Program-made: the position numbers and the translations under genes
Source of the DNA: Nitrospinota bacterium
GTDB lineage: Bacteria > Tectomicrobia > Entotheonellia > J063
NCBI GenBank assembly: GCA_003696125.1
Contig: RFHZ01000769.1
Span: forward strand, 1-6,336
DNA length: 6,336 nucleotides
Reading direction: 5' to 3'
Shown: in pieces, positions 3,168 to 5,777 of the stretch
Layout of the letters: each line of letters starts with the position of its first letter
Position numbering within the stretch: the first letter of the stretch is position 1
The notes under the pieces: model-generated
Seen by the model: only the letters and a program-made list of their open reading frames with translations
What the model was told of the DNA's origin: nothing
Databases searched by the model: none

Positions 3168-3196
3168 TTGACTTCCCCAGGAGGTCATTTTATAGT
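3168..3196 (+). promoter_or_regulatory. Sigma70-type promoter for the methyltransferase gene
   Basis: TTGACT (3168-3173) matches the -35 consensus at 5 of 6 bases. TATAGT (3191-3196) matches the -10 consensus at 5 of 6, and the spacer is the optimal 17 bp. Transcription would begin near 3202-3204, giving a leader of about 105 nt before ATG 3309. This would let the methyltransferase be expressed independently of treY-malQ, and possibly read on into the pilin genes. An AGGAGG at 3179-3184 lies in the spacer but has no ATG, GTG or TTG at a useful distance, so it is not taken as a ribosome binding site. Confidence 0.65.
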
Positions 3197-3241
3197 AGAG
3201 GACACCATACGGAGGAGAGACGGTTCGACCAGGCGCTCGCT

Positions 3242-3276
3242 CCACCTGGTGGTGGAAATCCCTGCGGGCCAGGTGG
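3242..3276 (+). repeat. Inverted repeat in the methyltransferase mRNA leader
   Basis: CCACCTGG (3242-3249) and CCAGGTGG (3269-3276) are perfect 8-bp complementary arms, extendable to 10 bp at the base with one G-U pair (loop 3250-3268). The left arm could instead pair with ACCAGG at 3228-3233, or with an identical ACCAGG at 3296-3301 that contains the putative Shine-Dalgarno AGGA. The arms are directly readable; a regulatory role is inference. Confidence 0.45.
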
Positions 3277-3297
3277 GGAAGGGGGAGGAGGGGAAAC
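3275..3297 (+). repeat. Purine-rich tract, copy 1 (methyltransferase leader)
   Basis: G-runs separated by A, ending GGGGGAGGAGGGGAAAC (3281-3297). Nearly the same string recurs at 3889-3906 inside the following gene with one extra A, and a related tract lies at 5180-5205. Its GGAGG (3284-3288) is 20 nt before ATG 3309, too far to act as the ribosome binding site. Confidence 0.5.
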
Positions 3298-3298
3298 C

Positions 3299-3302
3299 AG
3301 GA
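3299..3302 (+). promoter_or_regulatory. Probable ribosome binding site of the methyltransferase gene
   Basis: AGGA lies 6 nt before ATG 3309. It is short but well placed. No other in-frame start downstream of the promoter (GTG 3249, 3252, 3273; ATG 3318) has a better-placed site. Confidence 0.5.
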
Positions 3303-3308
3303 CCAGCG

Positions 3309-4214
3309 ATGGGGTCGATGAAACGATCCGAAACCCTGTTCTCTTATCACTTAAACGGACACCGCTTCACGCTCTATAACCTGGACTGTATCCACGGCAT
3401 GCAGAGGTGGCTGGAAAAAGGGTCTGTCGATGTCGTTGTCACCTCCCCTCCCTACAATCTCGGGATCAAATATCGCCGGTATGACGATACCATTCCCAGA
3501 CAGGAATACCTCGCCTGGTTAGGAAAATGGGCCCGGGTTCTCAAAGAGGTGCTCAGTGAGAAGGGGTCCCTCTTTCTCAACATCGGAGCCAAACCCCTCG
3601 ATCCCTGGGTGCCTTTTGAGGTGGCGCTGGAGATGCGAAAACACTTCTGCCTGCAGAACGTCATCCACTGGATCAAATCGATCGCCATCCAGAAGGAGGA
3701 TGTGGGAGACTATCCCGGGATCACGCAGGATGTGGCCATCGGTCACTATAAACCGATTAACAGCTCCCGCTTCCTGAACGATTGCCACGAGTACGTGTTC
3801 CACCTGACCAAAGGAGGGGATGTTGAGCTGCATCGGCTGGCCATCGGCGTGGAGTACCAGGACAAGTCGAATGTTACCCGCTGGGAAAGGGGGAAGGAGG
3901 GGAAACGGTGCCGGGGAAACACGTGGTTTGTCCCCTATAAAACCATTAAGAACCGGGAGAGTGAGCGCCCTCACCCGGCCACCTTTCCTGTAAAACTCGC
4001 CAAGATGTGCATCTTATTGCACGGATTGGACCGCACTCGCCTGGTCCTGGACCCTTTCCTGGGCATAGGACATGCCGCTGTCGCCTGTGTGGAACTGGGG
4101 GTCGATTTTGTCGGCTTTGAGATCGACACCGACTATTATGCGGAAGCCTGCGCCGCCATAACCACCGCAGGACAAAGGCAATCGGTGGAGTCAGGGAAAG
4201 AGGAGTCGCTTTAA
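3309..4214 (+). CDS. Site-specific DNA methyltransferase, beta class (N4-cytosine or N6-adenine), apparently orphan
   Basis: Transfers a methyl group from S-adenosylmethionine to the exocyclic amino group of a base at a specific DNA sequence. From ATG 3309 the protein has 301 residues. Catalytic motif IV is TSPPYN at 45-50; Ser before PPY is commoner in N4-cytosine enzymes, but N6-adenine cannot be excluded. A central region with [12 protein letters not shown] (from 202) and [18 protein letters not shown] follows. SAM-binding motif [15 protein letters not shown], lies at about 245-258. Motif IV before motif I defines the beta order. Motif I has His where FxGxG is usually followed by Thr or Ser. 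The frame is open back to TTG 3168, but that codon is the -35 box and the encoded extension is low-complexity, so ATG 3309 was chosen (ATG 3318 is possible). No restriction endonuclease gene is adjacent in the window, so it may be regulatory or a remnant of a restriction-modification system. A purine-rich tract (3883-3906) encodes RGKEGKR. Confidence 0.9.
3883..3906 (+). repeat. Purine-rich tract, copy 2 (inside the methyltransferase gene)
   Basis: GGGGGAAGGAGGGGAAAC (3889-3906), preceded by GGGAAA, matches copy 1 at 3275-3297 apart from one extra A and one G/A change. In frame it encodes the basic patch ERGKEGK just before the conserved RGNTWF motif. It could be a short dispersed repeat or chance purine bias. 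Confidence 0.45.
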
Positions 4215-4249: not shown

Positions 4250-4259
4250 AAGGAGGTGA
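4250..4259 (+). promoter_or_regulatory. Strong Shine-Dalgarno site of the first pilin gene
   Basis: AAGGAGGTGA is a near-perfect complement to the 16S rRNA 3' end, 8 nt before ATG 4268. It decides the start: the in-frame GTG at 4256 lies inside the site and cannot be the initiator. The 53 bp between the methyltransferase stop and this ATG show no convincing promoter or terminator. Confidence 0.8.
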
Positions 4260-4267
4260 ACGCTCTG

Positions 4268-4699
4268 ATGGGGGAGAGAGCCTTCACCCTGATTGAACTG
4301 CTGATCGTGGGAATGATCCTTGCCCTTATGGCCCTGCTGGCCCTCCCCAATTTTACCCACTGGCTCTTCATGACCAGGATGCATTCGACCGCCCGTGAGA
4401 TTGCGGCTGATCTCCAGACAGCCCGTATCAAAGCGATCACCCAGAACACCGCGTTTCGGGTCCGTTTTGATCCCCAGACCGAGACCTATCAGATGGAGAA
4501 GAGGGTGGCAGGTCAATGGAAAACCGTGGGAGATCCCAAGACCCTTCCCGCAGGTGTTGATCTGGTCCAGGTTACGAGGCAACCGATTTTTCAGCCGATT
4601 GGTACCGCTCCGGGAGGGACTACGGTGACCCTGCACGGGGCTCAGGGAGGCATAAAGAAGATCAAGGTCTCCTTTGCCGGCCGGATCAAGATCGAGTGA
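4268..4699 (+). CDS. fimT: FimT/GspH-type minor pilin (type IV prepilin)
   Basis: Predicted minor pilin, inserted in the inner membrane, cleaved and N-methylated by the prepilin peptidase, then assembled into the pilus priming complex. The 143-aa protein begins MGERA followed by FTLIELLIV, giving a 5-residue leader and Glu at +5 of the mature protein. The hydrophobic helix covers residues 6-28 and includes Pro at +22. The GspH/FimT domain follows, with the conserved type of segment ADLQTARIKAITQNTAFRVR (about 48-67). The residue before the cleavage site is Ala where Gly is usual; Ala is tolerated in some prepilins. It overlaps the next gene by 4 bp (GTGA). The symbol reflects domain type and cluster position; gspH-like is an equivalent label. 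Confidence 0.85.
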   Translation: MGERAFTLIELLIVGMILALMALLALPNFTHWLFMTRMHSTAREIAADLQTARIKAITQNTAFRVRFDPQTETYQMEKRVAGQWKTVGDPKTLPAGVDLVQVTRQPIFQPIGTAPGGTTVTLHGAQGGIKKIKVSFAGRIKIE

Positions 4700-5115
4700 G
4701 AAAGACGATGCTTCGCAGCAGTTGCTCTCCCCAGGAATTCACCGGCCAGGGGTTCACCCTGATCGAGGTGCTCATCGCCCTGATGATGCTGGCCGTTGTC
4801 TTCCTTGGGCTCTCTGCGCTGACGATCGCCGTGAGCACAGGGCTCTCCTCCAGCCATGCCGTGACCACGGCCATCACCCTGGCCCAGGACCGGATAGAGG
4901 AGATCAAAAATGGTGGTTATGCGCAGGCTACGGCGGCCAATTATCCGACCGAGGATTACCACACGATCCCCGGGTACCCGCAGTTTCGGCGCACCGTAAC
5001 CATCACCACAGACAGCCCGATACCCAACGTCAAAACCGTAAAGGTCACGGTCTCCTGGCATGGAAAAGGGGGAAAGACGCGGGAAGCTTCGCTGCAGACC
5101 ATGATCAGTCGATAG
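4696..5115 (+). CDS. pilV: PilV-type minor pilin (type IV prepilin)
   Basis: Predicted minor pilin of the priming/tip complex, 139 aa. From GTG 4696 the leader is MRKTMLRSSCSPQEFTGQG, cleaved before FTLIEVLIALMMLAVVFLGL, with Gly at -1 and Glu at +5. ATG 4708 in the same frame would give a 15-residue leader and is a reasonable alternative; neither has a strong ribosome binding site. GTG is preferred because it overlaps the fimT stop (GTGA), which suits translational coupling. After the helix, AQDRIEEIKNGGY (about 57-69) is the conserved PilV/GspI-like segment, followed by a beta-rich C-terminus (RRTVTITTD, VKVTVSWHGK). GspI of type II secretion is the main alternative, but the following pilW- and pilX-like genes favour a type IV pilus. 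Confidence 0.85.
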   Translation: MRKTMLRSSCSPQEFTGQGFTLIEVLIALMMLAVVFLGLSALTIAVSTGLSSSHAVTTAITLAQDRIEEIKNGGYAQATAANYPTEDYHTIPGYPQFRRTVTITTDSPIPNVKTVKVTVSWHGKGGKTREASLQTMISR

Positions 5116-5117
5116 GT

Positions 5118-5777
5118 ATGTATACCCTTCACTCTGATGACAGGATTTCTCCTCCCTTCCCCTCTTTGTTCCCGGCAGAGGGGAAAGAGGGGAGGGGAGC
5201 AGGGGTGACGCTGATCGAGTTGTTGATCACGCTGGCCATCGGGGTTCTGCTCCTGGCCGGCCTCTATCACTTCTTCCTCGGTCAACAGCACGCCTATGCC
5301 CTCCGCGAAGAGATCGCTGTCATGCAGCAAAACCTCCGCATCGGGATCGATATCCTGGCCCGAGAGGTCCGGCTGGCCGGGTATGATCCGACGGAGACGG
5401 CAGGGGCAGGATTGTTGACCGCTGCTCCTCATGCCATCCGTTTCACCGCAGATCGCAACGGGGATGGGGACACCGATGACCCCAACGAAGATGTGATGTA
5501 CCTGCTCTACGATTCCGGAAAGGATGGGGACCTGGACCTGGGGAGAAACACGGGGGGGAGCAACCAGCCGGTGGTGGAGAACATACAGAGTCTCGACTTC
5601 GTGTACACCCTGCGCGATGGCAGCACAACGACGGCCCCTGCAGACCCGGGCCAGGTGAGCATGGTGCAGATTCGTTTAACGGCCCGCACCGCCCATCCTG
5701 ATCCTGCCTATGCCGCTAACGGGGGCTATCGGACCAAGACCCTTTCCACCCGGGTTCGACTCCCCAATCTCAAATAG
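5118..5777 (+). CDS. pilW: PilW-type minor pilin with unusual repeat-derived leader
   Basis: Predicted minor pilin, 219 aa from ATG 5118, which lies 2 nt after the pilV stop and has no clear ribosome binding site, so coupling to pilV is likely. The frame is open further upstream across pilV, but that part is a shadow of pilV. Cleavage is expected after Gly29, before VTLIELLITLAIGVLLLAGL (Glu at +5). The 29-residue leader is long and its second half (PPFPSLFPAEGKEGRGAG) is encoded by a large palindrome. NLRIGIDILAREVRLAGYDP is the hallmark PilW segment. DRNGDGDTDDPNED (112-125) and DSGKDGDLDLG (132-142) are acidic loops resembling calcium-binding DxNxDG loops. A C-terminal conserved region (PVVENIQSLDFVY) follows. 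An in-frame TTG at 5166 would give a 13-residue leader but also lacks a ribosome binding site. Confidence 0.86.
   Translation: MYTLHSDDRISPPFPSLFPAEGKEGRGAGVTLIELLITLAIGVLLLAGLYHFFLGQQHAYALREEIAVMQQNLRIGIDILAREVRLAGYDPTETAGAGLLTAAPHAIRFTADRNGDGDTDDPNEDVMYLLYDSGKDGDLDLGRNTGGSNQPVVENIQSLDFVYTLRDGSTTTAPADPGQVSMVQIRLTARTAHPDPAYAANGGYRTKTLSTRVRLPNLK
5152..5199 (+). repeat. 16-bp inverted repeat (REP-like palindrome) in the pilW leader codons
   Basis: Arm 5152-5167 (containing CCCCTCTTT) is complementary to 5184-5199 (containing AAAGAGGGG). Fifteen of 16 pairs are Watson-Crick and one is G-T, around a 16-nt loop. The C/T-rich arm, central CCCGGC and G/A-rich arm followed by GGGGTGA resemble REP-type dispersed palindromes of the CCCTCTCCC...GGGAGAGGG kind. 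There is no T-run, so it is not an intrinsic terminator. It starts 34 nt after the pilW ATG. Confidence 0.75.
5180..5205 (+). other. Canonical G-quadruplex motif on the coding strand
   Basis: Four runs of exactly four G (5180-5183, 5189-5192, 5194-5197, 5202-5205) are separated by loops of 5, 1 and 4 nt, fitting the standard G4 pattern with up to four tetrads. Folding would compete with the overlapping hairpin, since three of the runs lie wholly or partly in its loop or right arm. Whether it folds in DNA or mRNA is unknown. Confidence 0.6.

Follow-up and report, generated by a model that had tools for sequence, protein, structure and literature searches.

The prepilin leader of a PilW-like gene in the window (the whole stretch of 6,336 nucleotides analysed, which is the entire contig C160) contains a real inverted repeat and a real extra block. 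What is seen is a palindromic expansion of that leader, low in complexity and present in one copy. With moderate confidence, the gene product is read as an ordinary PilW-like prepilin, the leader of which was lengthened by a single local, in-frame, low-complexity palindromic block of ~57 bp and not by a REP or other dispersed element. The features referred to below are as follows.

Within the window: treY/malQ-like genes, recognised by inspection only.
3168-4214: gene for a DNA methylase (PF01555, N6/N4 type), immediately preceding the pilin operon.
4256-4699: GspH/FimT-like prepilin gene, minor-pilin operon.
4696..5115, + strand: PilV-like prepilin gene (N-methylation motif, PF07963 over cut-off), stop codon TAG at 5113-5115.
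5118..5777, + strand: PilW-like minor prepilin gene (PF07963 over cut-off), with PilV upstream and PilX_N downstream.
5777 on: PilX_N protein gene, minor-pilin operon.
5118..5204, + strand: prepilin leader of 29 aa, MYTLHSDDRISPPFPSLFPAEGKEGRGAG, with Gly at -1, then VTLIE with Glu at +5.
5145..5201, + strand: 57-bp block (19 codons), ISPPFPSLFPAEGKEGRGA, absent in the in-genome paralogue, with ends placed by alignment.
5152..5167, + strand: left, pyrimidine arm of the inverted repeat, CTCCCTTCCCCTCTTT.
5184..5199, + strand: right, purine arm of the inverted repeat, AAAGAGGGGAGGGGAG.

The PilW-like protein scores 22.9 bits against PF07963 (cut-off 21.2) and has Gly(-1) and Glu(+5), which identify it as a type IV prepilin. 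Its match to PF16074 (PilW) has an E value of 0.013 and a score of 16 bits, below the cut-off of 26, and the name PilW rests on gene order and this weak match. Common to this protein and the PilW-type minor prepilins of type IV pili are the Gly(-1) cleavage motif, Glu(+5) and the FimT/PilV/PilW/PilX gene order. It differs from them in that the leader is 29 aa long and palindromic, with a Pro-rich half followed by a Gly/Glu/Lys/Arg-rich half, the mature +1 residue is Val, and the score with the PilW model is below the cut-off. The FimT/GspH-like prepilin of the same operon has an unusual cleavage site (window 4256-4285), in which Ala replaces Gly before FTLIE (MNALMGERA/FTLIE). No restriction gene was seen within the window to accompany the DNA methylase gene at 3168-4214.

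The leader extends from ATG 5118, located 2 nt after the pilV stop, through the Gly codon GGG at 5202-5204, and the mature protein starts from GTG (Val) at 5205. The preliminary description had placed a 16-bp inverted repeat within a 29-codon leader ending at this Gly; both the repeat and the leader length were confirmed, and the pairing is stronger than chance predicts, but the limit given there, 5207, takes in one codon of the mature protein (GTG 5205). The arms lie in frame inside the leader, on either side of a 16-nt spacer; of their 16 positions, 15 match, and there is one T:G wobble. In a second register, TTCCCCTCT pairs with AGAGGGGAA. Segment 5145-5204 has no stop codon in any of the six frames. 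The predicted RNA fold of 5140-5212 has an energy of -41.6 kcal/mol (z -3.4) and starts ~27 nt after the ATG. No intrinsic terminator was found, and a search of Rfam gave only sub-threshold matches, mostly to eukaryotic microRNA hairpins. An alternative start at TTG 5166, which would give a 13-aa leader, was not preferred, since it is not preceded by a purine-rich ribosome site and the 2-nt spacing of the paralogue is preserved with ATG 5118.

That paralogue, on contig C64, has the same distance between the pilV stop and the ATG, followed by a 10-aa leader, MERYHLQDTG. The interval from the pilV stop to the mature protein is 32 nt in the paralogue, as compared with 89 nt in the window, and the difference is 57 bp, i.e. 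19 codons. The gap in the MAFFT alignment falls over the palindrome, in agreement with the protein alignment. The block is absent from the closest orthologue (G003, 60% identity), which has 25 nt between the pilV stop and the mature protein, and from the G001 homologue (43-45% identity), which has a 10-aa leader; the leaders of the closest homologues are 10-19 aa long. As judged by these alignments, the block is probably extra sequence relative to the homologues. The comparison set consisted of five genomes of the whole phylum, with the closest homologue at 60% amino acid identity and no close relative among them; hence insertion and loss are not separable with certainty. When reference genomes were scanned for closer relatives, the only result was a 32% homologue, in Desulfopila.

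Contig C662 (L180, ~1420-1503) encodes another minor prepilin, the leader of which (MPRPSNGYRDRWQNPWRHASRGDSAPEG/MTLIE) differs in sequence and is at least 28 aa long; just before its cleavage site lies a small CCCCTGG/CCAGGGG hairpin. The length of this leader points to a loose constraint on leader length in this genome.

The draft assembly comprises 4.18 Mb in 990 contigs, with completeness of ~95% and contamination of 8%, and stem statistics were derived from 669 kb, i.e. 120 contigs plus the window (16% of the genome). Under an order-5 Markov model built for this genome, 0.3 stems scoring at least 14 are expected per 669 kb. Such stems are rare in the sample, the others being mostly GTAG palindromes, members of a CCGCCGAG/CTCGGCGG family and contig-end artefacts. 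The observed stem score was reached by 14 of 20,000 dinucleotide shuffles of the 60 nt and by 242 of 20,000 (~1.2%) shuffles in which the pyrimidine and purine tracts were kept apart. Thus, tract composition accounts for much of the palindrome signal, and with ~1% of the tract-preserving shuffles equally palindromic, a special mechanism is not required for the pairing. The pairing in the leader is unusual, not extraordinary.

These values bear on a reading that is unlikely but has some weight, namely that an unselected purine/pyrimidine-rich leader happens to pair, with no insertion having occurred, in a lineage whose ancestral leader was already long. The frequency of equally paired tract-preserving shuffles and the long leader of the C662 prepilin are in its favour, as is a possible similarity with G003, the leader of which (CCCTCTTTGCTCC) has CCCTCTTTGyTCC in common with the left arm in the window (13 bp, in frame, at a distance one codon off). 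This similarity was picked post hoc and is reached in 10-16 of 5,000 shuffles (0.2-0.3%) when required to be in frame and near, and in ~3% when any offset is allowed; the end of PilV is also encoded by these bases in G003. On this resemblance, the left arm might be older than the right one, or part of the block might be older. However, a stem this strong is rarely expected in 669 kb, and the short leaders of the closest homologues are at variance with a long ancestral one.

The preliminary description had interpreted the palindrome as a REP-type element that became the leader, and named, as support, dispersed copies in the source genome and relatives with a short leader lacking the block, and, as grounds for refutation, a lack of further copies. 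The block is lacking in the C64 paralogue, G003 and G001, all of them distant. The dispersed copies failed to appear in pattern and BLAST searches that covered everything assembled (4.18 Mb), so that the ground for refutation applies. A near-exact pattern with up to 3 mismatches matched the window alone in this assembly, and the arm pairs CCCCTCTTT..AAAGAGGGG and TTCCCCTC..GAGGGGAA, with 3-30 nt between them, occur once in 4.18 Mb and are absent from the four class relatives. BLAST up to E 10 revealed no copies of the palindrome, only purine/pyrimidine-rich fragments; the best candidate copy (E 8.9e-4) was rejected as a fragment that lacks the palindrome and lies in an unrelated reading frame resembling a metallo-hydrolase. 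No matches were obtained for the arms pattern in viral contigs or for the block in plasmids, and neither a GTAG nor a CGTC tag is present in 5145-5204. As a positive control, a comparable pattern search gave 25 copies of the GTAG palindrome GTAGGGGCGCAGCGCGCTGCGCCCCTAC and its close variants, none of them in the four class relatives; hence a dispersed family of this kind would have been detected. As judged from sequence comparison, the REP reading of the leader palindrome, which is single-copy and untagged, is not supported.

REP elements carry GTAG/CGTC tags, and they resemble the leader palindrome in being short palindromes that are known also from inside ORFs (PMC3733652), whereas the leader palindrome has a longer stem and tract-like arms in addition to being unique and untagged. 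Rickettsia palindromic elements (RPE) are likewise palindromes read in frame within genes, but they form repeated families of ~150 bp (PMC10969869), as compared with a unique block of ~57 bp here. With no second copy, no repeated family with a conserved peptide in unrelated genes was found.

It is improbable that the leader received a mobile palindrome of REP type or resembling an RPE, the other copies of which were lost, are missing from the draft or are too diverged. The palindrome is genuine, the 57-bp length difference from the paralogue is exact and in frame, elements inside genes have precedents, and a family of GTAG-tagged palindromes as well as a single Y1_Tnp gene are present in the genome. 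However, a second copy of the arms is lacking at an estimated completeness of 95%, as is the tag, the closest BLAST match is the coding sequence of an unrelated gene, and the flanking repeat is only an out-of-frame CAGG. By inspection, CAGG was rejected as a target-site duplication, since precise excision would shift the frame.

Members of the GTAGGGGCGCAGCGCGCTGCGCCCCTAC family (e.g. L048:4396-4424 and L070:7281-7308) are mostly located outside long ORFs in the sampled contigs; GTAGGGGCGACGCATGCGTCGCCCCTAC is a variant. The single Y1_Tnp transposase gene, of the REP-associated type, is on contig C887:556-882 (L185), and no GTAGGGG palindrome occurs within the surrounding 2.4 kb. Several copies of another dispersed family of palindromes, CCGCCGAGnACGC...CTCTGCG...CTCGGCGG, are present in the 669 kb (L121:8246-8311, L078:3823-3893, L126:97-154 and L070:9634-9691). 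Very long palindromes at exact contig ends (L047:12533-12697 and L148:8829-8980) are probably assembly artefacts.

It is very unlikely that the PilV:PilW ratio is set by a selected RNA hairpin via slower early translation of pilW: the predicted early fold would suit it, and the other prepilin leader regions tested have no comparable stem, but the hairpin is absent from the paralogue and orthologues. Likewise very unlikely is that the hairpin acts as a translational brake on pilW under selection in this lineage only, or that the block is the draft's only copy of a novel palindromic element that targets prepilin leaders in frame.

In the preferred reading, a local lengthening of the leader, the block would have arisen locally and once as two low-complexity tracts, pyrimidines first and purines after them, together forming a quasi-palindrome. 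Over-representation of purine/pyrimidine-rich 12-mers of the block is mild at most (e.g. GGGGAGCAGGGG, 7 occurrences versus 1.6 expected in the 669-kb sample), and such tracts are thus common local raw material. Candidate mechanisms are tract expansion plus replication template switching that would copy one arm onto the other. Template switching at quasi-palindromes is documented for E. coli (PMC7202029) and is proposed to create hairpins (PMC8794818); switching between imperfect arms is a known route to more perfect repeats. The leader block is similar to the quasi-palindromes considered there in being a near-perfect local inverted repeat in a single place, and differs in that no ancestral sequence here displays the copying event. 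With only five phylum genomes and no close relative, the event is undatable.

Persistence of the block may be due to the removal of the leader by prepilin peptidase at Gly(-1), which would leave its sequence nearly free and the expansion close to neutral, and to the absence of stops from the tract in any frame. Translation of pilW may be reduced, as compared with that of pilV, by the strong mRNA hairpin that spans codons 10-30.

A translation that is first Pro-rich and further on Gly/Arg/Glu-rich is insufficient for calling a REP element, and caution is warranted where such a peptide is met. The palindrome is a modest curiosity and not a mobile element, and would have no wider consequence unless the stem is conserved in relatives. 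On a small scale, it illustrates how low-complexity palindromic DNA can be taken up in frame by a leader that is cleaved off.
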